Origin: Lachnospiraceae bacterium
GTDB taxonomy: Bacteria > Bacillota > Clostridia > Lachnospirales > Lachnospiraceae
DNA length: 64,000 bases
Reading direction: 5' to 3'
NCBI GenBank assembly: GCA_024698485.1
Contig: JAILRC010000002.1
Coordinates: 1-64,000, forward strand
Shown here: positions 11,828 through 38,251 of the stretch, in pieces
Layout: each line of letters begins with the position of its first letter
How positions within the stretch are numbered: position 1 is the stretch's first letter
The notes under the pieces: generated by a model
Seen by the model: the letters and a program-made list of their open reading frames with translations, nothing else
What the model was told of the DNA's origin: nothing
Databases searched by the model: none
Position numbers and translations under genes: made by a program

Positions 11828-13909
11828 ATGAGTGACCGGAATTTTGACAGATTAAAGGACCTGTTGGCGGATGAGAAATACGACGAAGCCATCAACCTTC
11901 TTACACAACTGAATGAAAAACATGCAAGGACCGCTTCGGATTTCATCGCGCTTGCCAAAGCCTACGGCAAAAGAGGTGATTTCAAAAGAGCAGAAAAGAT
12001 GTTCAAAAAAGCATACAGACTCCGTCCCTCGAAGCTCATGTATCATGATGTTATGGATGTTTGTTTGGAAACCGGGCACATAAGGGATGCAGAGGAATAT
12101 CTGAAGGAATATGCATCACTGCCTGCTCATGACGAGTTCAGCTGTGCGGTTTATGAGTATAAGATCCTTAAAAAGCAGAATGCCGACAGGAAAGAGATCA
12201 TAGAGACACTGCAGAAGATCAACAGCCTGGGTTATGACGAGAAATGGGCATATGAACTGGCAAAGCAGTACTACAAGGCAGGCATGGAGGAAGAATGCAA
12301 GCGGGAATGCGAAAAGATCGTTAAGAACTTTGAACTCAGTCCCGTGGCTTCGAAGGCCGCTATGCTCCTGGCTTACTATAACGGAGAAGTTACCGCAGAT
12401 GACATCAAGAATTCCGTTCCCGCAAGCGTAAGGCGTGTGGGAGGAGAGGTGAGAGCAGCGGAGATCATAGCCCATCCCGAGGAAGAACCGACCGCGGATC
12501 CGGCAACCATAGAACTGGAGACAGCGGTGTTTACGGAACCTTCGCCGGATGACATGGCCTCCGAGATCATTGCAGCGGAGGCATCCTACGGCCTTGATGA
12601 CATTGCCCGGGGAGTGAGAGACATAATTGAAGAGGAGCAGACTGCAGAGCCTGAGATAGAGGAGATCACTGCGGAGCATTCCGACCCCGAGATCGAAGAG
12701 ATCACGGCGGAACACTCCGATCCCGAGATAGAGGAGATCGCTGCGGAACATGATCCCAACGACCACAGGGATGTTGAAGGGGAGAGCAATTTTGACGAAG
12801 ATGCGGAAGAGGAGACGGAAGAAGTAGCCCCTCAGGCTGCTGTTCCCGCGGGACCGGAAGATTTTACCGCCATGGTCAGACAGTCGGTGGAGGAAGATGG
12901 GGAAGAGGTCCGTCCTTCCAGGGAAGAGGAAGAGAGAGAATATGAGAGCGGATTCGACGATGAACCCAAGGCCGAAGCTGCTCAGGAAATAGATGATGAA
13001 GCTGATATCGATCGTTTGAAGCGGTCAAGAAACGTGCTTGAAGAAGGTTTCATGAGGGAACTGAACAGCAGGCGCTTTGAAAGGACCATGCCTCAATATG
13101 TTTTGTATGCTCCGAAGATGAGTTTTTCAAAATCCGAGATCAAGGAAGGAAAACTCAGGGATCTTATTGTTGAAAGAGGTGTTGACCTTGAAGGCATATG
13201 CAAAAATTACTTCAGGATCGACGACCTGAGAAGATCCATTCTCAAATCCCTGGATCTTGCGGTGAACGAGAAGGGAGCGCTCTGCTTTGTGATCACGGGA
13301 GAGGAACAGTCCGGAAAGAGTACGCTTGCCCTGACCATGATCCATATGATGTATGAGATCGGCATTATTAAGTTTGAAAAGACTGCCAAGATCAGCGGGG
13401 ATAAGATGAACAGGATCAATCTCTCCGAAAGAGCCGGAGATCTGAAGGATTGCAACATCCTGATCGAAAATGCGGGAGAACTCTCGAGCGAAAGCCTGAG
13501 GGATCTGGTGGATCTTTTTGGACAGAAGCGCTTGGACACCTGTCTGATCCTGGAAGACAATATGAAGATGATAAACGGTCTTTTCAGGACCAACGACCGT
13601 TTCAACGGAATTTTTAACAACAGGATACATTTGCCCAAGTACGGGACCGATGAACTTATGGGCTTTGCCTATGACATCTTTACGGAGGCGGACTATTCCA
13701 TAGAAGCTTCGGCTGCGGATGTGTTCAAGAAGCTGATCGCGAAGAAGACCATGGGGAACGTGGCAAAACTCCCCGCGGTGCTTGAACTGGCGAAAAAAAC
13801 GGTTGCCAATGCGGATGAGAGGCTTACTCCGGACATATTAAAAATGGCCGCCGAAGCAGCCATAGAAAATTACAATCTTGTGATACTGGAACAGGACATC
13901 AGACCTTAA
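11828..13909 (+). CDS. TPR-repeat protein with acidic linker and C-terminal P-loop ATPase domain
   Basis: 693 aa; N-terminal TPR-like helices, Glu-rich middle with 12-aa repeats, VITGEEQSGKSTLALTMI Walker A-like. Confidence 0.65.
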   Translation: MSDRNFDRLKDLLADEKYDEAINLLTQLNEKHARTASDFIALAKAYGKRGDFKRAEKMFKKAYRLRPSKLMYHDVMDVCLETGHIRDAEEYLKEYASLPAHDEFSCAVYEYKILKKQNADRKEIIETLQKINSLGYDEKWAYELAKQYYKAGMEEECKRECEKIVKNFELSPVASKAAMLLAYYNGEVTADDIKNSVPASVRRVGGEVRAAEIIAHPEEEPTADPATIELETAVFTEPSPDDMASEIIAAEASYGLDDIARGVRDIIEEEQTAEPEIEEITAEHSDPEIEEITAEHSDPEIEEIAAEHDPNDHRDVEGESNFDEDAEEETEEVAPQAAVPAGPEDFTAMVRQSVEEDGEEVRPSREEEEREYESGFDDEPKAEAAQEIDDEADIDRLKRSRNVLEEGFMRELNSRRFERTMPQYVLYAPKMSFSKSEIKEGKLRDLIVERGVDLEGICKNYFRIDDLRRSILKSLDLAVNEKGALCFVITGEEQSGKSTLALTMIHMMYEIGIIKFEKTAKISGDKMNRINLSERAGDLKDCNILIENAGELSSESLRDLVDLFGQKRLDTCLILEDNMKMINGLFRTNDRFNGIFNNRIHLPKYGTDELMGFAYDIFTEADYSIEASAADVFKKLIAKKTMGNVAKLPAVLELAKKTVANADERLTPDILKMAAEAAIENYNLVILEQDIRP
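12650..12757 (+). repeat. Three tandem 36-bp coding repeats
   Basis: Encode PEIEEITAEHSD / PEIEEITAEHSD / PEIEEIAAEHDP. Confidence 0.85.
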
Positions 13910-25111: not shown

Positions 25112-25140
25112 TGAGGCGGCAAGTCAAAAACTTGCCGCTT
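25112..25140 (+). repeat. Left copy of 29-bp direct repeat (terminator hairpin)
   Basis: TGAGGCGGCAAGTCAAAAACTTGCCGCTT; identical to 32402-32430; preceded by an A-run but lacking a following T-run. Confidence 0.92.
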
Positions 25141-25146
25141 CAAATT

Positions 25147-25201
25147 TGTAGACAAAGGGTCCCTGGTCCGTTAGGATTTCGGAACTTTTTGTATTTTTTA
25201 T
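25147..25201 (+). repeat. Left terminal inverted repeat of island
   Basis: TGTAGACAAAGGGTCCCTGGTCCGTTAGGATTTCGGAACTTTTTGTATTTTTTAT; blocks TGTAGACAAA, CGTTAGGA, ATTTTTTAT recur in inverse at 32349-32398. Confidence 0.8.
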
Positions 25202-25346
25202 GCCGTGATAAATCGATGTTTTTGTTGGTTCGATGTATAACTTTTGATTTCATGTGGATATTTGATTCGGTTTCACTTATAAGAGCAACTGGGCCTATGC
25301 ATCATTTGTGTATAACGGATATGATCGTAAACGAGGGATTTCTTTC

Positions 25347-26732
25347 TTATATAAATGGTTCCGAATAACATATTCCCGATATAATATCACTATAAATATT
25401 CTTACATCTATCCATGGAACCATTAATACTGCCTTCTGCTAGTGCTTCTGCTCGGCATCCACCTCCGCAAAAATATTTATATTTACAAGAATAGCAGTCT
25501 GTTTTTTTGCTTTCAACATTATGTTGTCTGTTGAAACATACACCTTCTTTAATTATAGAATTTAGTTTATCATTAAGTGTACCAATCCTATATGCGTCAT
25601 AGTGAAGTGAAGGACAGGGATAAATATTTCCATTTGGAACTATGCTGATTATTTTTTTTCCTACACCGCAACTGACAACCTTACCACCTATTTTTATTTT
25701 TTGGGTTATTTCAAAAGAATTACTCACAGATATTGAATAACCATCTTTTTTTAACTCAGCTACTTTTTTTAAAAATACTTTATAGTTTTTGTCAAAACTA
25801 TCGAAATAGCCACCGATAGCCTTATTCATATTTTTACCGGTTCGAATAATACGATTTATGTGAACCGAATGAATTCCAAGGCCTTTTGCAAAAGCTGGAA
25901 AGTCAAGTAGATCATCTATATTATCTTCTGTAACAGCAAACGAAATAATTATATTTTTAAAGCCCAAGGAAACAGATTTCTTGATTCCCATAAGCGTTTT
26001 TTCAAATGATCCCGCTCCCCTGTTTTTTTCGTGAGTTTCTTTTTTTATCCCATCTAAGGAAAACTGAATTCCGTTAATATAAGGAAAAACTTGTGAATAT
26101 ATGTTGTGTCCGACCGTTCCGTTTGTAATAATTTTTACAGAGGGAAACCTCAATCTTTCTTTTAAAAGACGCAGAATTGTTACAAGTTCCTTATTCAAAA
26201 ATGGTTCCCCGCCACTAATCACTATATTTTTACGTTTCCACAAAGGGATCTGATTTAAAAATTTTTTTAAAAGACTAATATCGATATTCTTTATGCCACC
26301 TTCATCCAAAACATTTCTTGCTCTAAAATAACAGTACGGACATGAAAGATTACACGTATCAATTATATGAATCCATATTTGTTCAAAAGAAGCCTTGGTT
26401 TCTTTTGGCAATTTATTTTTCTTTTTTTCTTCATTACCATTATTATCAGCAACGACTAAGAACCCAACTTTAAGCATCGCTTCTATGCTTTCATTGTATA
26501 TTTTGGCTACATAGCTATATTTGGTTTTGTTTTCTTTAGCAACCTCAGTCAAGTAAGCTTTTATTGTTGAACCGGAAATACTCTTTGCCATGGAATAGCC
26601 TATCTCGTCCAGTTCTATCCAATTACCTGACTTATAATTCAAAAAAATAAGTTTATTACAATCAGGGGCCTTTATAAAATCTTGATTTATAACAAGTTGT
26701 TTATTGCATATTGAATTAAATGACTTTTTCAT
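25347..26732 (-). CDS. Radical SAM/SPASM peptide maturase with N-terminal PqqD-like region
   Basis: 461 aa; CNLSCPYC (CX3CX2C); SPASM DCYSCKYKYFCGGGCRAEALAEGSINGSMDRC (CX2CX5CX3C...C); N-term WIELDEIGYSMAKSISG...EAMLKVGFLV. Confidence 0.88.
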   Translation of the reverse strand: MKKSFNSICNKQLVINQDFIKAPDCNKLIFLNYKSGNWIELDEIGYSMAKSISGSTIKAYLTEVAKENKTKYSYVAKIYNESIEAMLKVGFLVVADNNGNEEKKKNKLPKETKASFEQIWIHIIDTCNLSCPYCYFRARNVLDEGGIKNIDISLLKKFLNQIPLWKRKNIVISGGEPFLNKELVTILRLLKERLRFPSVKIITNGTVGHNIYSQVFPYINGIQFSLDGIKKETHEKNRGAGSFEKTLMGIKKSVSLGFKNIIISFAVTEDNIDDLLDFPAFAKGLGIHSVHINRIIRTGKNMNKAIGGYFDSFDKNYKVFLKKVAELKKDGYSISVSNSFEITQKIKIGGKVVSCGVGKKIISIVPNGNIYPCPSLHYDAYRIGTLNDKLNSIIKEGVCFNRQHNVESKKTDCYSCKYKYFCGGGCRAEALAEGSINGSMDRCKNIYSDIISGICYSEPFI

Positions 26733-26739
26733 CTTTCTC

Positions 26740-27588
26740 TCACCGGAATATATAATACTTAATAAGTTCTACCATGTTCAAAAAAACATCATCATTGCAT
26801 GCGTGAAACAGAATTGCCACCCCAATACATCCTGACTTGTCATATAGTACTGCGCATACCATTCCAACAAAGATTATTTGTACCAGATTAAAAAAAACTG
26901 ACCACGACCATTCCCAACTTAATGAGGTCAATAATCCAACATGCCATAAAGCAAATATTATTGAAGATACTAGTATGGCATATTTCTTCTTTGTTATTTT
27001 CTTCAGGGTATTGTATAAGAAGCCCCTAAAGAACAGTTCCTCTAACAACGCGGCGGTAAAAAAGGCAAGCAGAATATCTTGAATAAGCACATTTTTTTCA
27101 AAAACTCTTGCCCTACGTTCATAAATGGTTATGATGTTATTCACCAACAACGGAACAAAGGCCAATAAGTATACATTTATATGAGATTTGTCAGTTGTTC
27201 TTTTTAAACGTTTGTTATTTTTTATATCATACACTGTCAGCCCCAGGGGAAAAATTTGAACGGCAAGCATTTCCCAAGAAGTAAAAATGTAATATCCTGC
27301 TATTTTTATTGAATGATTCCAATGTCCGTAATAAAACGAAATAATGGCTGCAAAAGCACAGATAACCGAAATTACGGTTAGGCTTAGTATGATTTTTTTA
27401 GGTGTGTTACTATTATCTTCCCTAAAACTCTCAATATTTATTTTCCCGATGATAAGAAAAAGAAGAAACGGGAAATAAGAATTCAGTAAACTTAATATAA
27501 TAAGCCCTATCAAGATACTTACTTGCTTTAACATATGCAATGTGTATTTATTTTTTTCTGATGTACCCTTTGTTATGGAAGTGTCCAT
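26740..27588 (-). CDS. CPBP-family intramembrane metalloprotease
   Basis: 282 aa; EELFFRGFLYNTL, IIFALWHVG, ILFHACND motifs; start uncertain (overlaps upstream gene by 41 bp). Confidence 0.82.
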   Translation of the reverse strand: MDTSITKGTSEKNKYTLHMLKQVSILIGLIILSLLNSYFPFLLFLIIGKINIESFREDNSNTPKKIILSLTVISVICAFAAIISFYYGHWNHSIKIAGYYIFTSWEMLAVQIFPLGLTVYDIKNNKRLKRTTDKSHINVYLLAFVPLLVNNIITIYERRARVFEKNVLIQDILLAFFTAALLEELFFRGFLYNTLKKITKKKYAILVSSIIFALWHVGLLTSLSWEWSWSVFFNLVQIIFVGMVCAVLYDKSGCIGVAILFHACNDDVFLNMVELIKYYIFR

Positions 27589-27907
27589 TTTTACATTGCT
27601 CCATTTTAATATAATAATAGTAAATTCCTTCGGTTAAATTTACTGAAATTGAATCCTTGAAATCCTTTCCTTCGAAGAAATATATGTCGTCTCCGGCATC
27701 ATTGTAAACTTTGACAATCATATTACCGCTTTCCACTGTTCCTTCAAAATCAGCTTCAAACGTGGAGTCAGAGTTTATGATGAATTTTTCTGTTTTCTCT
27801 GTATCAAATGCTCCGAATCTTGCATTATCTTCAAAGCATTTAGTCTCGCCACATCCTTGAACCAATAATGTTATCAAGATAAACAAGGCCAAACATTTCT
27901 TTTTCAT
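27548..27907 (-). CDS. Small putative lipoprotein (possible immunity protein)
   Basis: 119 aa; signal MKKKCLALFILITLLVQGC lipobox. Confidence 0.6.
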   Translation of the reverse strand: MKKKCLALFILITLLVQGCGETKCFEDNARFGAFDTEKTEKFIINSDSTFEADFEGTVESGNMIVKVYNDAGDDIYFFEGKDFKDSISVNLTEGIYYYYIKMEQCKNGHFHNKGYIRKK

Positions 27908-27922
27908 CTTATTATTTCCTTT

Positions 27923-29083
27923 CTATGATATCATTGCCTTCTTGGGGCTGGTTGAACTGATCCTTACTTTAAGGATCCCGGTAATTGCGATCAGAACTAC
28001 CGCAGTGATCATCAGCATAAGAAGGATTATTCTGAAAGATACGTTATATACCGAGATTGGGAAGCCTATCTCTTTGGAAAATCTGCTGTTAATTATAGTA
28101 CAGATTATTTTTGTAACAACAACAGCAAAGATAGAAGAAGTCGACTGGATAATTGCAACCCCGCCCAAATAGCAACTCAAAATGTACTGATCTCTGAGTC
28201 CCAGTGCTTTAAGAATACCAAGTTTTCTTGAGAGACCCTTCATAGCATAGGCAAGAAGAAGAGCTTCCAATACCACCGCAAAAACAGTAACAAATACAGG
28301 CATTACCCTTCGAGTCCCCTTGGTTCCGGACATCCCTAAATTTTCTGAGCACCCGACTACCTGATAATCCGAAAGTTTAATACTCGACGTGATAGCCCTG
28401 TAACTTTCCTCTGCTTCCTTTGTAGGAAGGTAGATCCAAACAACGTTTGGAACAGTGTTTTCCTGTGTTTCTGCCTCAAAAATCACAGAATAATCAAATT
28501 TTGCGCCTGCAGAGTCTAATATTCCAACGACTTCATAGGGAATTTCGGTCATCTCACCCGTAACATCAAAATACATTAATCCACCGCGAACCTCTTTTCC
28601 GAAATCGATGTGTGAGATCGTATCCCCCACCTTGATATTTGCTGTATTTGCAAGATATCCGCCAACAAGTATCTCGTTTTTACCTTTTTCGGGAATACGA
28701 CCTTCATGGATAAATTCCTTCATAACCTCTTCAAGAAATTCGTGCTCGCAGGCATATCTTATGTAGTCATCTCCCGTAAGCTGCCCGGGTCTCGTTATCG
28801 ATAATGAGTACCTCGATGTCAATTGATAAATTTTAGAATCTTTTGAAAGCTTTGATCTCAGATCCTTGGCAAAATCGGGTGAAATGTCCTCATACATTCT
28901 TGAAAAACTCCTGCTGGCCTGTCCTGAGAATATGACATTCGGAGAAAGCTTAGCATATGATCTTTCGGACGTGAAAGTTAATAGAACGCATATTAAAAAC
29001 ATGGATATTAGAGTCATTATCGCGAAAAAGATAGTTTTCCCCATACCTCCAAACAATTCTTTGGCAAAAAGCTTGGTTTTCAT
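27923..29083 (-). CDS. MacB/FtsX-like ABC transporter permease
   Basis: 386 aa; one N-terminal TM, large extracytoplasmic domain, three C-terminal TMs. Confidence 0.75.
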   Translation of the reverse strand: MKTKLFAKELFGGMGKTIFFAIMTLISMFLICVLLTFTSERSYAKLSPNVIFSGQASRSFSRMYEDISPDFAKDLRSKLSKDSKIYQLTSRYSLSITRPGQLTGDDYIRYACEHEFLEEVMKEFIHEGRIPEKGKNEILVGGYLANTANIKVGDTISHIDFGKEVRGGLMYFDVTGEMTEIPYEVVGILDSAGAKFDYSVIFEAETQENTVPNVVWIYLPTKEAEESYRAITSSIKLSDYQVVGCSENLGMSGTKGTRRVMPVFVTVFAVVLEALLLAYAMKGLSRKLGILKALGLRDQYILSCYLGGVAIIQSTSSIFAVVVTKIICTIINSRFSKEIGFPISVYNVSFRIILLMLMITAVVLIAITGILKVRISSTSPKKAMIS

Positions 29084-29094
29084 TCTTTCCCCTC

Positions 29095-29730
29095 CTATAA
29101 TTCGACAATCTCATCACAAATATCATCAAACACGGACGTGTGGCAGGTTACTATTACCAACTTTGTCTTTTTCAGTTCCTTTAGCAATTCAATGATAATC
29201 TGTGCATTGCCTTCGTCTACATTGGAGATCGGTTCGTCACAAATGAAAATCTCCGCATCTTTCAAAAGCGCTCTCGCAAACGCAAGCCTTTGTTTCTCAC
29301 CTCCGGACAATTCTGCTGTCCTGTGATGTTTTCTGTGTGCAAGGTTCATCTTTTGCAGAAGATCATCAATCTTCTTTCCATCAAATTTTTCCTTAGTATC
29401 CTCATATATCAGTTTAAGATTTTCAAAGACTGAAAGATTTTCAAAAAGAGCATAGTCCTGGAACACAAAAGAATATCTTTCTTTACGAATACTGCACAGA
29501 GTGTTTTTATCCGAAAAATCCAAAACTCTTCCATCAATCGACAGATCACCGTATGTCGGGTCATCTAAAAGGCCCAAAATGCTGAGCAAAGTTGTTTTTC
29601 CTTTGCCCGAAGCTCCTTTAAGAAGATACATTTTACCTGCTTCAAATGCGTGACAGAAATCCTTGATAACTTCTATATTGTTTTTCCCTTTTCTATACGT
29701 TTTTCCGAGATTACTTGCCTGAATCCTCAT
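29095..29730 (-). CDS. ABC transporter ATP-binding protein (LolD/MacB-like)
   Basis: 211 aa; GASGKGKTTLL, LSGGEKQRLAFARALL, IFICDEP. Confidence 0.88.
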   Translation of the reverse strand: MRIQASNLGKTYRKGKNNIEVIKDFCHAFEAGKMYLLKGASGKGKTTLLSILGLLDDPTYGDLSIDGRVLDFSDKNTLCSIRKERYSFVFQDYALFENLSVFENLKLIYEDTKEKFDGKKIDDLLQKMNLAHRKHHRTAELSGGEKQRLAFARALLKDAEIFICDEPISNVDEGNAQIIIELLKELKKTKLVIVTCHTSVFDDICDEIVEL

Positions 29731-29742
29731 TGGGTTGCTCCT

Positions 29743-31377
29743 TTATATAAAAACTGTTTTTACATTAAAATATTGTTCGATTGAATCATCATGTGAAATC
29801 ACTATTATAATTTTCCCTTTAAGTTTATTTAATATTTTTTCAAAAATACGTAATCTTGTTTTTTCATCAATACAAGAAAATGATTCGTCAAAAATATAAA
29901 CGTCCGCTTGTTTCAACAAGGTTCGGGCTATTGATAGGCGTTTAATCTCTCCTCCGGAAAAATTGCAGACTACTTCTTCTATTTTTGTATTCAAGCCTTT
30001 TTTTAATCTTGAAACAAAGCCTAAAGCCTCCGCAATATCAAGTGCTTCATTAATATTTCCCTCAATTACTTCTCCATCATCTGACCTCGAGAGATTGGCG
30101 TATATTGTATCAAAGGCGAATATATCTTCTTGATAGCATACTGCCACTTTTTTTCTCATATCATTTTCTTTGAATGAATAAGTATCGTTGACATAAATGT
30201 TTCCTGACGAAGCCTCCAAATTTTGTGATATTAAGTTTAAAATTGTACTTTTCCCTTTGCCGCTTGTTCCTTTAATGATATAAGGTAACTTGTTTGTAAA
30301 TGTCATGTTGAAATCTTTTAAGATTTTTCTGTCTTCACCCGAAAAGGAAAATGAGACATTATCAAAAGTTATTTTTTCTATTTTGTGTGGGTTATTGAGC
30401 TCTCCTTTGATAACATCCAATTCTAAGTCCAGAATATCAATTATTCTTTGAGCCGAAACCTTAACCTTCTGTAGCTGAATATTTACCGAAACAATCTGTG
30501 TAAAAATACTTCTGAGAGATGATGCTACTCCAATGATTGCTACAAACGCTCCTAAAGATAAAGAGTCATTCATAACCTTTCTCGCACCTACATATAATAA
30601 ACTTACATCTCCAAGTATACCTATTAATGATACAGCAAACCTAGAAATATACTCCACATCAAAGTTTCTGACACTGATTCTTCGTATTTGCTTTAAACAA
30701 TTATAATAATCATTGATCAGCTGTCCTTGAATCGAAAAAACTTTTACCAAAGGTAAACATATCATATTTCTTGTAAGCATCTTCAAGTGGTCTTGTGTAA
30801 CTACGCGTGCATCGTTTTGATTCTCTCTTATTTTTGATGAAAACAAACGAGTGACCAGCATCTGAAGCAAAGAAGGAAGAAGTACCATTAGAAAAAAAAC
30901 GATGGAATATGTGCAGAGATATGCAGACAAGCATATGAGCGTAAAGATTAAGGATGCATTCCCAATAAGTACATTATTGAAAAAATTATTTACGTAAGTA
31001 ACATCTTCCATGATTCGGGTAGATATCGCGGATGAAGATAATTTGTTAATATCACTGAACTTTGCAAGATGAACCCTTTTTAAAAGATCGATTCGCATAT
31101 CAATACCACATTGTTGCGAAACAGCAATATTGCATCTTTCTGCTGCCCAAGATAGAAAGATGCATATAATGCTGACAAAAAGAAAAAGACAGAAAAAACT
31201 CGGAAGCATCGAAAAATCTCTACTTGCTATAACAGTATCAATCAAGTGCTGATTAACGATATATTGATACATGGATACAACAGTTCCAATCAGTAAAATA
31301 ATCAGCATAAATGCGACTTTTATCCAGTATTTTCGAAAGTACAAATTATATAACCTAAACAGACCCTCTTTGCTCAT
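29743..31377 (-). CDS. ABC exporter, fused membrane and ATPase domains, no C39 peptidase domain
   Basis: 544 aa; N-terminal TM domain then GTSGKGKSTIL, FSGGEIKRLSIARTLL, VYIFDE. Confidence 0.87.
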   Translation of the reverse strand: MSKEGLFRLYNLYFRKYWIKVAFMLIILLIGTVVSMYQYIVNQHLIDTVIASRDFSMLPSFFCLFLFVSIICIFLSWAAERCNIAVSQQCGIDMRIDLLKRVHLAKFSDINKLSSSAISTRIMEDVTYVNNFFNNVLIGNASLIFTLICLSAYLCTYSIVFFLMVLLPSLLQMLVTRLFSSKIRENQNDARVVTQDHLKMLTRNMICLPLVKVFSIQGQLINDYYNCLKQIRRISVRNFDVEYISRFAVSLIGILGDVSLLYVGARKVMNDSLSLGAFVAIIGVASSLRSIFTQIVSVNIQLQKVKVSAQRIIDILDLELDVIKGELNNPHKIEKITFDNVSFSFSGEDRKILKDFNMTFTNKLPYIIKGTSGKGKSTILNLISQNLEASSGNIYVNDTYSFKENDMRKKVAVCYQEDIFAFDTIYANLSRSDDGEVIEGNINEALDIAEALGFVSRLKKGLNTKIEEVVCNFSGGEIKRLSIARTLLKQADVYIFDESFSCIDEKTRLRIFEKILNKLKGKIIIVISHDDSIEQYFNVKTVFI

Positions 31378-31469
31378 TTATATCCTCTTTGTTCAATCAA
31401 ACATGTCTCATCATGAAAAAATGAACTGCTCCAATAATAATTTCTTTATACGAAAAACGGACAGGATTA

Positions 31470-31688
31470 CTAAATAAACTTTAATATCCAATCTATAATT
31501 GTGACAATGATTCCAATCTTTCCGACTGTATCGTCTGATGAACTGTTGTCAATTTTCCCGGCGCTACCATAGGGATCGCATGAAAAATCATACTGTGTGT
31601 TTCCGTAAGAATCCGTATAAGTTCCACATGCATAATCCTTTTTCATATTAGATATGCGTACTCGGGGTAACTTAAGTAAAGTATTCAT
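31470..31688 (-). CDS. Putative RiPP precursor peptide 2 (72 aa)
   Basis: MNTLLKLPRVRISNMKKDYACGTYTDSYGNTQYDFSCDPYGSAGKIDNSSSDDTVGKIGIIVTIIDWILKFI; internal start of the 31470..31862 ORF, GGGAGG RBS upstream. Confidence 0.8.
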   Translation of the reverse strand: MNTLLKLPRVRISNMKKDYACGTYTDSYGNTQYDFSCDPYGSAGKIDNSSSDDTVGKIGIIVTIIDWILKFI

Positions 31689-31689
31689 T

Positions 31690-31896
31690 TTAACCCTCCC
31701 GTCCAAATATGAAATCAATAATTTTTTGAAGAAGTCCCCTGTCATCAGCATCAATTTTTCCTTGATTTCCATAAGGATTACAAGAGAAGTCATACTGCAC
31801 GTTTCCATTGGAATCCGTATATGTTCCGCATGCATAATCCTTCGTTGCAATAGAAGATACATTTACTTTGGGTAACTGTAATAATAATTTTTTCAT
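31690..31896 (-). CDS. Putative RiPP precursor peptide 1 (68 aa)
   Basis: MKKLLLQLPKVNVSSIATKDYACGTYTDSNGNVQYDFSCNPYGNQGKIDADDRGLLQKIIDFIFGREG; AAGGAGGA RBS; paralogous to peptide 2. Confidence 0.82.
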   Translation of the reverse strand: MKKLLLQLPKVNVSSIATKDYACGTYTDSNGNVQYDFSCNPYGNQGKIDADDRGLLQKIIDFIFGREG

Positions 31897-31992
31897 TTTT
31901 TCCTCCTTAGTCCATTTTTCATTGATGAGACCACATTTGATTGACTCCGGACCAAAAAGTGATTAAAATAAAAAAGACTTTATGGTCACTTT

Positions 31993-32036
31993 GCAAGCGC
32001 TGTTTATTTTCGAAGGTATCCGGCGCTTGCTTTTTT
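31993..32036 (+). terminator. Orphan plus-strand terminator-like hairpin in the leader of the peptide operon
   Basis: GCAAGCGC...GCGCTTGC followed by TTTTTT. Confidence 0.6.
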
Positions 32037-32224
32037 ATGCAAAGAATGGTTTCCCATTCGTTTTGCCTTATATAAATATTTTGCGTGAAAAAATAATTCA
32101 GTTCACTTTTGCATGCTACCATAGTAACTAAAAAAAATCAACCGTAAATAGACTGATTTTTTAATTTTTTTTTTGGGTGGGCACATTATTACCTTGAATG
32201 AGATTGTTAGCTTGTCTATTTTTT

Positions 32225-32248
32225 GTTTCAAAAAAAAATATTTGAAAC
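32225..32248. repeat. Inverted repeat upstream of peptide operon
   Basis: GTTTCAAA-N8-TTTGAAAC. Confidence 0.55.
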
Positions 32249-32348
32249 GGAAAATGCGAAATGCTCGTGACAAAAAAATTTTAAAAAGTCTTAAGAACCG
32301 ACCGGTGCAGAGGTAAATAAAACCAATTCCTCTTTTTTGAAAACAACA

Positions 32349-32398
32349 ATAAAAAATGGCTCCAAAGTCCTAACGTACTCGAAACCATTTTGTCTACA
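32349..32398 (-). repeat. Right terminal inverted repeat of island
   Basis: Reverse complement TGTAGACAAAATGGTTTCGAGTACGTTAGGACTTTGGAGCCATTTTTTAT. Confidence 0.8.
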
Positions 32399-32401
32399 GT
32401 C

Positions 32402-32430
32402 TGAGGCGGCAAGTCAAAAACTTGCCGCTT
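32402..32430 (+). repeat. Right copy of 29-bp direct repeat (terminator hairpin)
   Basis: TGAGGCGGCAAGTCAAAAACTTGCCGCTT followed by TTTC; identical to 25112-25140. Confidence 0.92.
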
Positions 32431-33628: not shown

Positions 33629-35698
33629 TTACATCCTGTTCTTTATGATGTTTTTACTGCTGAAGAAGGTGATGAGGAAGTAGCCTCCGTAGATCAGGAG
33701 CAGTATAGCGGATGTGACCGTTATGGAAGTGGAGACGTTTTCGGTTCCCACGATCTCCAGAACCTGTTTGGCAAACTTCATTCCGAAAATGGAGTGGAAC
33801 AAAGCAAGAAGAAGAGGCAACAGGAAGAATATGCCTGTCTGTATGAAAAGGGAACCTGTGACAGAAGACTCTTCCGCACCGATCTTTCTCAGCATCTCGT
33901 ATCTGGGCAAGCTGTCAACACTTTCGGAAAGGGTCTTGAGGGCAAGGATGGCTCCGCTGGCAATGAGGAACACGATGCCTATGTAAAGACCGATGAAGGT
34001 GAGGATGGCAGTGAGTCCGATGGCGTTTTCATAGAGCTCGGACTTTGTGGCAAAATCGTACCAGTAACCGCCGTATTTGACATCGTCTCTGCCGTAGGTG
34101 TCACCGACCCACTGAAGCCAGGAATTTTCAATGAACTCGTGCAATCTGTTTTCTGCAGCTCTGACCTCTTCTTTTGACCCCTGTTTGTAATTTCCGATAA
34201 AGTAATCCTGCACCTTTTGAGTCTCATCCACAGCCTTGTCGGGAATGATGAAAATGCCTGAGCAGACGGCAGTGTTGCTGAGATCGATGAAGCCGTCCAC
34301 ACACTCGTTGCAAGCGGGCTTAAGACTGTTACCGAAGACGGTTATGCCGAGACCTGTGCTCAAAGGAAGGTCCAGCATCTTTTTCATGGAATCGTAATTG
34401 CAGATCACCAGATACTCGTCGTCCTTAAGAGTGAGACGATCTCTGTGATAAAGATCCATGAGAGCATTGTAATCGCTGATTTTTACAAAAGTCGCGGGTG
34501 CACTGAACCTGAAAAATCTGAACTGCTTTTGCAGATCCTCCAGGTAGGGACCGAAGAAATCGCCCAGGGTCACATCCTTGTCATTATAGGCTGCAAAATG
34601 GGCATATTCACCGAAAACATCGGTAAGGTCACAGCCTGCTTCCTGAAATGATTCTTCTATATCTACATAGACATTGTAGGTCCTGTCGCTGTCATAAACG
34701 GTGAGTTCAATCTGGGCATCTGCGGGGCAGTACTTCCGAAGGTTGCCGTTCATGGCGTTCCTGAATGAGAAGGAAGCTGAAAGGGCACATATGGTGACGA
34801 AGAGCATCAGGCAGATGACGGTCATGGCAAAGATCATGGTGTTGACCTTACTGCTGATCTGACGGAAGGTGAAAGCGTTCAATCCTCTGTGGTAAAGCTT
34901 CTTGAAGGACATGAGGATCCTTAAGAGAAGACCGGATACCGAGAAGAAGATGAGCAATGTGGAAACGGCGCCAAGGCATATGCTGATGATGACCTTTGTC
35001 TCGTTCAGGTGTTCAAAATCGTAGGCTACCATATAGTAAGCCCATCCCAGAGCAACGGAGGCGATGATAAAAAGGATCACGGAAAGAACGGGATTCTTTG
35101 CGTGGATAGTTTCGGAACGCTTTCCGCTCTGGATAAGGTCTATGAGCTTCATCTTTGTGACAGAAATGCTGTTAAAGAACATCACGAAGAGATACATGAC
35201 TGCAAAGCAGACAATGGTCTTTATGATGGCACTGCCGGAAACAGTGAATTTAAAGGCGGTCATGTCAGCTTCAAAAAGGTTTGCCACAACGGCGCTCATG
35301 AGCTGTGAAAGACCGACCCCTGCCACGAGACCCGTGATCAGTGAACCGATGCCGATGATGACCGTTTCCATGAGAAGAATGGCGGAGATCTTTCCCTTTC
35401 CCATGCCAAGGAGCATGTAGAGGGCAAATTCGCGGTTTCTTCGCTTCATGAGGAAACGGCTGGCATATATGATGAGAAGAGCCAGGACACCGGCTACAAA
35501 AATGCTGACTATGGAGAGGATCTCCGTAAGGAGGCGCACCATATCGTTGCGGCTTTCCTCGACCCTAAGCATGGCAGCCTGGGAACCTACGGCGTTAAAA
35601 ATGTAGAAGATGGAAACGCCGATGACCAGTGTGAAAAAGTAAACAGCATAGTCCTTAAGGCTTCTGCGAATGTTTTTTAAGGAGATCTTAAAGAGCAT
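33629..35698 (-). CDS. BceB-like ABC transporter permease (FtsX family)
   Basis: 689 aa, many predicted TMs with a large internal extracytoplasmic domain, next to BceA/S/R-like genes. Confidence 0.82.
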   Translation of the reverse strand: MLFKISLKNIRRSLKDYAVYFFTLVIGVSIFYIFNAVGSQAAMLRVEESRNDMVRLLTEILSIVSIFVAGVLALLIIYASRFLMKRRNREFALYMLLGMGKGKISAILLMETVIIGIGSLITGLVAGVGLSQLMSAVVANLFEADMTAFKFTVSGSAIIKTIVCFAVMYLFVMFFNSISVTKMKLIDLIQSGKRSETIHAKNPVLSVILFIIASVALGWAYYMVAYDFEHLNETKVIISICLGAVSTLLIFFSVSGLLLRILMSFKKLYHRGLNAFTFRQISSKVNTMIFAMTVICLMLFVTICALSASFSFRNAMNGNLRKYCPADAQIELTVYDSDRTYNVYVDIEESFQEAGCDLTDVFGEYAHFAAYNDKDVTLGDFFGPYLEDLQKQFRFFRFSAPATFVKISDYNALMDLYHRDRLTLKDDEYLVICNYDSMKKMLDLPLSTGLGITVFGNSLKPACNECVDGFIDLSNTAVCSGIFIIPDKAVDETQKVQDYFIGNYKQGSKEEVRAAENRLHEFIENSWLQWVGDTYGRDDVKYGGYWYDFATKSELYENAIGLTAILTFIGLYIGIVFLIASGAILALKTLSESVDSLPRYEMLRKIGAEESSVTGSLFIQTGIFFLLPLLLALFHSIFGMKFAKQVLEIVGTENVSTSITVTSAILLLIYGGYFLITFFSSKNIIKNRM

Positions 35699-36470
35699 CG
35701 TTTACTTCACCTCCCAGCAGGGTGACAACATCCATGATCCTGTCGAAGAATTCTTTACGCTTTGCGTTTCCTCTTGAGATCTCATTGAAGATCTTTCCGT
35801 CTTTAATGAAGATAACGCGGCTTGCATAGCTGGCTGCAAAACTGTCGTGGGTAACCATCATTATGGTGGCATTGTATTCTTTGTTCAGGAAATTGAAACG
35901 CTCCAGAAGCATGCCCGAGGACTTGGAGTCCAAGGCGCCTGTAGGCTCGTCCGCAAGGATCAGCTTGGGATTTGCCACGATGGCACGGGCGGAAGCCACA
36001 CGCTGCTTCTGACCGCCGGAAAGCTGGTAGGGATATTTGTCTAAGATCTCTTCGATGCCCAATTGTTGCGCCACGATCCTGACGGCCTTTTCGATGTCAC
36101 TGACCGGCCATTTTTGGATCGTGAGCGAGAGAGCGATGTTTTCATAAGAAGTAAGGGTATCAAGAAGATTAAAATCCTGAAAGATAAAGCCAAGCTTTTC
36201 CCGACGAAAGGAGTTTAGCTTCTTCCCCTTTAACTCTGTGATGTCCTGGTTTTCAAGATAGATGTGACCTGCAGTAACGCGGTCGATGGTGGATATGCAG
36301 TTGAGAAGGGTTGTCTTTCCGCTTCCGGATGCACCCATGATGGCAACGAACTCTCCTTTCTCCACCGAGAAGGAAATATCGTTGAGAGCCTTTGTAAGGC
36401 TTGATTTGTTTCCGTAATATTTTTCAACCTGCTGTACTCTGAGTAATTCCATTTTTTTGATTCCTTTCAT
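35688..36470 (-). CDS. BceA-like ABC transporter ATP-binding protein
   Basis: 260 aa; GASGSGKTTLLNCIST, LSGGQKQRVASARAI, LILADEPTGALDS. Confidence 0.9.
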   Translation of the reverse strand: MKGIKKMELLRVQQVEKYYGNKSSLTKALNDISFSVEKGEFVAIMGASGSGKTTLLNCISTIDRVTAGHIYLENQDITELKGKKLNSFRREKLGFIFQDFNLLDTLTSYENIALSLTIQKWPVSDIEKAVRIVAQQLGIEEILDKYPYQLSGGQKQRVASARAIVANPKLILADEPTGALDSKSSGMLLERFNFLNKEYNATIMMVTHDSFAASYASRVIFIKDGKIFNEISRGNAKRKEFFDRIMDVVTLLGGEVNDAL

Positions 36471-36548
36471 TTTTTCTGTAGTATAACGGACCGGGTTCAG
36501 AGTGTCGCAATTGCAATCTTATTTAACATTACAATTTTGAAAGGTTGA

Positions 36549-37565
36549 TCACCGGGAGATCTTGAGAAGGGTGCTTTTGGCGAAGGAAAGGGCAAATTCC
36601 GTGCAGACATCCTCTTGGGAAGAGACCGTGACGGAATGTCCCAGACGGGTGCAAAGGCTTTTTACGATGTAGAGGCCCATGCCCGTGGAGCCGGGGTTTT
36701 TCCTGCCGTTAAGACCGGTGAAACTTTTTTCGAAGATCCTGGGGAGGTCGGTTTCCGGAATTCCTATGCCGTTATCCCTGAAGTAAAAGGTCACTCTGTC
36801 TTCCGTTTCTTCGGCCCTGACCTTTATTATCAGAGGACGGGAGGGATGGGCATATTTCAAACTGTTGGCAATGAACTGGCCTATGATGAATTCCAGCCAT
36901 TTTCCGTCGGTGAGGACGGTATGGTCCAGATCGGATGCATCGATCTCTGCATTGGCGAGCTGCAGAAGTTCGCGGCTTTTGACCGCTGCGTTTCCGAAGG
37001 CTTTTTGAAGGGAGTACTCTTTTATCACATAGTCTTTTTCAGCATTTTCGGAACGGGCATAGTAGAGGACGTTTTCAATGTAGTCGTCGATCTTTTTTAG
37101 CTGCCCCGTCATTTTGGCCCTGACGTCGGGATTGTTCTTGCATATGAGTTCAAGGGCGGCTACGGGAAGTTTGGCTTCGTGTACCCACATTTCTATGTAT
37201 TCCCTGAACTCTTTGGTCTGAAGCCTGTAGACCGCCACATTTTCCGCCATGGATTTACTGCTGTCCATAAGGATCTCGCTAAGGAGCCTGCCCTCCAGAA
37301 AATCCGCGTCCGGAAGCATTTCGGAGATCAGGTATTTGCGGTCCAGATTTTCGAGATTGGAAAAGACGGCGTTGTAGAAAGCCCGCCGTCTGTTGAACTC
37401 TACCATGTCTGCAAGGAGGCAGGCCGGAACAAGGACACCCGTTACCGTGATGACAGACACCGTGGGAGTTTTCAGGGCGGTGAGAAAGATGAGAACTATA
37501 AAGTAGAAGACTCCCCGGATGAGCAAGGTGTATTTTTTGTCTTTAATGTAGGCGAAAAAATTCAT
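36549..37565 (-). CDS. BceS-like intramembrane-sensing histidine kinase
   Basis: 338 aa; two short N-terminal TMs, HEAKLPVAALELICKN, GSTGMGLYIVKSL. Confidence 0.82.
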   Translation of the reverse strand: MNFFAYIKDKKYTLLIRGVFYFIVLIFLTALKTPTVSVITVTGVLVPACLLADMVEFNRRRAFYNAVFSNLENLDRKYLISEMLPDADFLEGRLLSEILMDSSKSMAENVAVYRLQTKEFREYIEMWVHEAKLPVAALELICKNNPDVRAKMTGQLKKIDDYIENVLYYARSENAEKDYVIKEYSLQKAFGNAAVKSRELLQLANAEIDASDLDHTVLTDGKWLEFIIGQFIANSLKYAHPSRPLIIKVRAEETEDRVTFYFRDNGIGIPETDLPRIFEKSFTGLNGRKNPGSTGMGLYIVKSLCTRLGHSVTVSSQEDVCTEFALSFAKSTLLKISR

Positions 37566-38251
37566 TTCAGTACATACCCCTGTTTCTTTCTGGTCTCGAT
37601 AGCTTCAGGGAGACCAAGATCCGCCAGTTTGTTCCGCAGGCGGCTGATGTTTACGGAAAGAGCGTTGTCATTAATGAATTCGTTGTTGTCCCAGAGCACT
37701 GTCATAAGGTCGTCTCTGGAAACGATCTCCCCGGAATGATCCAACAGAAGCCGAAAGATCAGCATCTCGTTTTTGGTAAGCATCTGTTCCGCACCGTTTC
37801 GGGAGAGTGTACCCTTCAGAGTGCTTACATGCACATCTTTGTAGATCATTTCCTGGCCGGTCTTTCTGGTCCTTTTGAGAACCGCGGAGATCCTGAGGAG
37901 GAGAATGGTGGGGTTGTAGGGCTTGGTGATGTAATCATCCGCACCGTAACTCATTGAGATGAGTTCATCCAGTTCAGCCGTGCGGCTGGTGAGCATTATG
38001 ACGGGAGTGTCCTTGGTCTTCCTGAATTCCTGAAGAAGGGCTTCTCCGTTCTCTCCCGGGAGATTGATGTCCATGAGGATGAGGTCCGCACCGGAGCTCT
38101 TAAGGAGGGAAGAGACGTTACCGAAGTCTGTCACCTTTTCCGCGGTGTATCCGGCGTTATTTAAAAGAATGGACAGTTCTTCGCTTAAGGTCTTGTCATC
38201 TTCAATTATGAGTATTTTGTTCATAGGTTTTCTGCTCCTCCTGTTTCGCAT
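37562..38251 (-). CDS. BceR-like response regulator
   Basis: 229 aa; LILMDINLPGENGEALL, C-terminal winged helix. Confidence 0.87.
   Translation of the reverse strand: MRNRRSRKPMNKILIIEDDKTLSEELSILLNNAGYTAEKVTDFGNVSSLLKSSGADLILMDINLPGENGEALLQEFRKTKDTPVIMLTSRTAELDELISMSYGADDYITKPYNPTILLLRISAVLKRTRKTGQEMIYKDVHVSTLKGTLSRNGAEQMLTKNEMLIFRLLLDHSGEIVSRDDLMTVLWDNNEFINDNALSVNISRLRNKLADLGLPEAIETRKKQGYVLK

Follow-up and report, generated by a model that had tools for sequence, protein, structure and literature searches.

A radical SAM RiPP operon with two paralogous precursor peptides, probably the sole cargo of a discrete 7.26-kb insertion cassette in a Lachnospiraceae bacterium

Because the first 64,000 nucleotides of contig JAILRC010000002.1 of a Lachnospiraceae bacterium (assembly GCA_024698485.1; hereafter, the window) include a compact set of peptide, maturation and export genes, two questions are raised by this locus: what kind of product the genes make, and how they came to stand where they do. 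Eight open reading frames on the minus strand lie within 25347-31896, and in the order from 31896 to 25347 they encode peptide 1, peptide 2, an ABC exporter, an ATPase, an FtsX permease, a lipoprotein, a CPBP protease and a radical SAM/SPASM enzyme. An initial annotation had proposed this order for an eight-gene operon on a single strand and had read it as a radical-SAM RiPP system; the order was confirmed by the reading frames and by their Pfam and NCBIfam domains, and the interpretation is supported by a gene composition matching that of radical-SAM RiPP clusters such as skf. It is by far the best reading of the operon. The gaps of about 7-15 nt, with one of 92 nt, that had been given for the operon hold for most of its junctions. 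Peptide 2 and the exporter are separated by 92 nt, the gaps after the exporter are 12, 11 and 15 nt in order, and that between the CPBP and radical SAM genes is 7 nt, whereas only 1 nt separates the two peptide genes, and a CPBP gene beginning at the ATG at 27588, which has a GGAG ribosome-binding site, would overlap that of the lipoprotein by 41 nt. An internal ATG would place the CPBP start 13 nt from the lipoprotein gene; the ribosome-binding site is the better one at 27588.

Precursor peptide 1 (31690..31896, minus strand; 68 aa) has a core of the form DYACGTY...DFSCNPY, and precursor peptide 2 (31470..31688, minus strand; 72 aa) has the core DYACGTY...DFSCDPY. The two are paralogous and 62% identical, and share the near-invariant block KDYACGTYTDSxGNxQYDFSCxPYGxxGKID. 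Of the 31 codons in this block, 15 are the same in both genes, 11 have synonymous differences only and 5 differ non-synonymously (dN 0.11; dS not estimable). Between the paralogues, purifying selection has acted on the core. Since these are paralogues with a core conserved through mainly synonymous change, the peptides are translated and selected protein-coding genes, not chance reading frames. Both C-terminal tails contain IID[FW]I, and a strongly hydrophobic tail is found in peptide 2 only; a reading of both tails as amphipathic helices was dropped, the tail of peptide 1 having no helical moment.

Each core carries two copies of the motif D[YF]xCxxY, 16 residues apart, a feature absent from the initial annotation. 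Two copies arose in 2 of 200,000 shuffles of the core; since the motif had been picked after being seen, a broader test was run on shared residue classes flanking both cysteines, and it gave a p value of about 0.0016. Only two cysteines are present in each peptide, and the repeat is a natural candidate site for two equivalent cross-links.

The two peptide genes are bracketed exactly by an imperfect inverted repeat of about 50 nt (equalled in alignment by 1 of 2000 shuffles), whose upstream arm (31909..31966, minus strand) lies in the mRNA 5' leader and whose downstream arm (31378..31427, minus strand) covers the ribosome-binding region of the exporter. In the minimum-energy fold the repeat forms a long-range stem (z -1.8) which would cover the exporter ribosome site, and a local stem in the 5' leader competes with it (fold z -2.8). 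Speculatively, the long-range stem may tune the synthesis of precursors relative to that of the exporter. The operon 5' leader at 31970-32056 folds into several stems, including GCAAGCGC...GCGCTTGC (z -2.8), and a search of Rfam gave no match. Elsewhere in the window, a tandem repeat with a 36-bp period (2.8 copies) is located at 12653-12751.

The radical SAM/SPASM peptide maturase (25347..26732, minus strand; 461 aa; Radical_SAM PF04055, 9e-20) has its CxxxCxxC motif as CNLSCPYC at residues 127-134, followed by seven SPASM-type cysteines at 355, 373, 413, 416, 422, 426 and 443, while its Pfam SPASM score of 21.2 bits is slightly below the cut-off of 21.5. Its top NCBIfam match is the StsB family (NF045574; 138.1 bits, 3.7e-40), aligned nearly over the full length at residues 29-446, but this is far below the curated cut-off of 625 bits and the enzyme is not a member of that family. 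The scores against PapB (NF047865; 102.4 bits against a cut-off of 340) and SCIFF (TIGR03974; 88.8 bits against 425) are also below the curated cut-offs, and WgkB, which makes a Trp-Lys link, scores 103 bits. The closest PDB matches are the SCIFF maturase CteB (1.3e-17) and the sactisynthase SkfB (9e-7). The top family and structure matches are mostly makers of thioethers (StsB, PapB, SCIFF/CteB and SkfB), and the maturase fits none of the curated families. Its N-terminal segment of about 110 aa is probably a precursor-binding (RRE) domain; residues 1-109 matched no family in the searches for RRE, and a single-sequence structure model (pLDDT 41) was too poor for judging this point.

Relatives of both the peptides and the maturase were sought widely. 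No Pfam or NCBIfam model matched the peptides, and only two matches, both by chance, came from a motif scan covering 84,980 species: one (L006) sits inside a large coiled-coil protein and the other (L007) at the end of a contig, in an unrelated frame; both were rejected. Profile searches of 7 genus and 378 family genomes, as well as searches of viral contigs and plasmids, returned only noise. The proposal that the substrate falls outside the described classes is thus borne out, as no library searched assigned it to one and the searched genomes yielded no relative. For the maturase, no close relative was detected in samples of 397 family and 391 class genomes (about 780 in total), nor in viral contigs or plasmids. 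The nearest homologues have 28-33% identity, and in the three neighbourhoods that were read the gene content is different. Because one of these homologues adjoins an unrelated precursor and none of the three has a peptide of the operon's type beside it, they supply no known class and are not orthologues. An orthologous cluster did not turn up in any of the searched genomes, and a limited literature search for StsB or for Lachnospiraceae ranthipeptides found no paper.

Two other loci were noted in the course of these searches. In another genome of the family (L013:8034-9482), a 69-aa precursor with the Cys-rich stretch GEIGCILGCTTIC is directly followed by a 411-aa radical SAM enzyme and then by ABC genes, and this is a different radical-SAM RiPP pair. 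In another member of the class (L011:4386-10474), a maturase homologue of 28% identity is accompanied by a PqqD-like protein of 91 aa and an ABC exporter, as well as by proteins which resemble, by eye, cobalamin-type radical SAM enzymes.

The five remaining genes are candidates for roles in export, leader removal and self-protection. The ABC exporter (29743..31377, minus strand; 544 aa) has its membrane domain fused to the ATPase (ABC_membrane and ABC_tran by Pfam/NCBIfam) and is a candidate exporter of the mature peptides; a C39 peptidase domain was not found in it by the Pfam/NCBIfam search. The ABC ATPase (29095..29730, minus strand; 211 aa) is an ABC_tran protein of the LolD/MacB/lactococcin-972 type by the same libraries, and the adjoining permease (27923..29083, minus strand; 386 aa; PF02687, 8.5e-7) is of the FtsX/MacB type. 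The small lipoprotein (27548..27907, minus strand; 119 aa), with a signal peptide ending in LLVQGC, is a candidate immunity lipoprotein and is predicted at low confidence to be all-beta, the structure model being too weak for a useful fold search. The last, a CPBP/Rce1-like intramembrane glutamic protease (26740..27588, minus strand; 282 aa; PF02517, 2e-20), keeps the EExxxR, FxxxH and HxxxD motifs, as read directly in its translation, and is a candidate for either an immunity protein or a leader protease.

The answer to the second question comes from the surroundings of the operon. The RiPP operon and its non-coding ends are the entire content of an island at 25141..32401 (7261 bp), whose boundaries had been missed in the initial annotation. 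GC content is 34.3% in the island and 47.7% in the remainder of the window, and no other stretch of 7.26 kb in the window falls below 45.1%. The island is flanked by two copies of a perfect 29-bp direct repeat, TGAGGCGGCAAGTCAAAAACTTGCCGCTT, each of which is a terminator. The left copy (25112..25140) is a terminator hairpin used by an arabinofuranosidase gene and also, read on the minus strand, by the RiPP operon at its end, and the right copy (32402..32430) is the terminator of an HD-GYP gene. An A-run precedes the left copy only and a T-run follows the right copy only, which is the asymmetry predicted by duplication of one bidirectional terminator. In three congeners the site is empty: alpha-L-arabinofuranosidase and HD-GYP-type genes stand 92-97 bp apart with one terminator-like region between them. 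These comparisons suggest that the operon was horizontally acquired as a discrete cassette.

Just inside the direct repeats are imperfect terminal inverted repeats of 38-40 bp, TGTAGACAAAGGGTCCCTGGTCCGTTAGGATTTCGGAAC on the left (25147..25185, plus strand) and TGTAGACAAAATGGTTTCGAGTACGTTAGGACTTTGGAGC on the right (32359..32398, minus strand), with the common pattern TGTAGACAAA...CGTTAGGA...GGANC and identity in 30 of 40 alignment columns. Gaps of 6 bp on the left and 3 bp on the right separate the direct repeats from the TGTAGAC ends. When the AT-rich ends were shuffled, the observed alignment score of 49 was not extreme (shuffle mean 27, maximum 58), and the case for terminal inverted repeats rests on identical blocks that occupy corresponding positions next to the duplication. 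In a 387-genome search, no further occurrence of the exact end pattern TGTAGACAAA...CGTTAGGA turned up in the host genome, 6 congeners or other genomes of the family, and a relaxed pattern gave one match with three mismatches in a congener, equal to the rate of its control. A search of plasmids and viral contigs with the island ends gave no relevant match, and an Enterococcus match (79.6% over 49 bp, E 0.1) was attributed to chance.

We regard it as likely that the eight genes are a complete radical-SAM RiPP operon, whose products are probably two related peptides resembling bacteriocins, and that a discrete insertion cassette of 7.26 kb carries this operon and no other cargo. The event by which the island entered duplicated the 29-bp bidirectional terminator, each neighbor gene keeping its own; as a consequence of this duplication, both neighbor genes and the minus-strand operon retain a terminator. 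No transposase or integrase is encoded in the island. An IS1202-family DDE transposase is absent from the island, and no autonomous copy was found in the host genome (79% complete), whose only rve-domain match is an IS3-type-looking reading frame at a locus without a TGTAGAC end. Transposase-less mobile insertion cassettes have been described in the literature, and the long-duplication subgroup of IS1202 combines TGT/ACA ends with duplications of 16-28 bp (PMC10132070). The island resembles both the IS1202 family and such cassettes in having cargo within terminal inverted repeats and no transposase, together with a long direct duplication and TGT/ACA ends, and it differs from them in that its cargo is a seven-kilobase RiPP operon and in that 3-6 bp separate the duplication from the TGT/ACA ends, an uncommon arrangement for a simple transposon.

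This offset bears on an alternative which we hold to be possible but somewhat doubtful, namely that the island entered by a tyrosine-recombinase (integrase-type) event, with the palindromic terminator as its att site, rather than through a DDE transposase with a long target duplication. The 29-bp repeat is palindromic with a short center and resembles the core sites of integrases, and the direct repeats and the TGTAGAC ends are not adjacent. However, the 38-40-bp imperfect terminal inverted repeats with 5'-TGT and ACA-3' resemble the ends of a transposon, ends and duplications of comparable kind are known from the IS1202 subgroup mentioned above, and neither kind of recombinase is present in the island.

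For the working of the system, we propose that the N-terminal domain of the maturase would bind the short leaders of the precursors (LLxLPxV) and that the enzyme would cross-link each core twice, once in each copy of D[YF]xCxxY, the bonds most likely being Cys thioethers. Since the exporter has no C39 peptidase domain, removal of the leader must come from elsewhere, and the leader would be cut off by a non-C39 protease, possibly the CPBP protein. The ABC exporter would then secrete the products, and the MacB-like ATPase and permease, the lipoprotein and/or the CPBP protein would protect the producer.

The target of the peptides can be read differently: they may be secreted signals, or may act on the producer's own population as in SKF-like cannibalism, and not be bacteriocins against other species. 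The gene kinds are closest to those of the skf operon, and a Bce-type sensing and detoxification set adjoins the island, consisting of an FtsX permease, an ABC ATPase, a sensor kinase and a response regulator (33629-38251) beyond the HD-domain gene. This set, however, occupies the same place in two congeners without the island and is thus native and outside it, and no dedicated receptor or regulator is found inside the island, so that this reading is an unlikely one.

Thioether formation by the maturase, as proposed above, has its own competitor, in which C-C cyclophane (triceptide-like) links are made at aromatic residues (YTD, YGN/YGS, YDF), with the cysteines joined in a plain disulfide. 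Tyr-x-Asp/Asn/Ser triplets are abundant in the cores and conserved in both peptides, and a content of only two cysteines per peptide also favors this, but both cysteines are the center of the internal repeat and the maturase's best matches are mostly thioether makers, WgkB notwithstanding; cyclophane links are, in our judgment, quite improbable. Vertical inheritance of an ordinary operon, lost in congeners and low in GC for compositional reasons, is extremely unlikely: the comparison is limited to six other genomes of the genus, but none of the three intact junctions that were read contains the operon, an insertion is marked by the exact 29-bp duplication and the terminal inverted repeats, and the low GC is unmatched in the window.

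Orphan radical-SAM RiPP clusters are common, so that one more is unsurprising in itself. This operon is raised above other orphans by a precursor family with no detected relative, a maturase outside every curated family and exact boundaries, and its clear repeated Cys unit makes a test of the cross-links simple. The boundaries suggest that a whole operon of the peptide-antibiotic type can move as a terminator-targeted cassette without a recombinase of its own, which would give clusters of this kind a concrete way of passing between related bacteria. Tentatively, and with the odds rather against it, the operon could be the founding member of a new radical-SAM RiPP class, in which paired substrates with two D[YF]xCxxY cross-linking units are spread as a non-autonomous cassette that targets and duplicates bidirectional terminators, harmless to both neighbors.

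Comparison with known RiPP systems places the operon near several of them. The StsB-family sactipeptide maturases are the closest NCBIfam match of its maturase, at a score far under their cut-off, and with the PapB and SCIFF ranthipeptide maturases it shares the nature of a radical SAM/SPASM enzyme, probably of the thioether-forming type, and its top PDB match is CteB, again with family scores far under the cut-offs. PapA precursors carry CxxxD repeats, and SCIFF has a six-Cys pattern; the precursors of the operon have neither. Like thuricin CD, a two-component sactibiotic, the operon has two related peptides, presumably processed by radical SAM chemistry, in one cluster, a likeness of description and not of aligned sequences, whereas thuricin CD uses two radical SAM enzymes (PMC12093266) and the operon has one. 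The skf operon, which specifies a sactipeptide, consists of a precursor gene, a radical SAM gene, a putative protease gene (skfC) and ABC export/resistance genes (PMC8172795). The present operon has the same kinds of genes, and SkfB is a detected relative of its maturase with a solved structure. It differs from skf in having two paralogous precursors of unrelated sequence, an additional ABC exporter and a lipoprotein, no thioredoxin gene, and a maturase with a full set of seven SPASM cysteines instead of a twitch domain.
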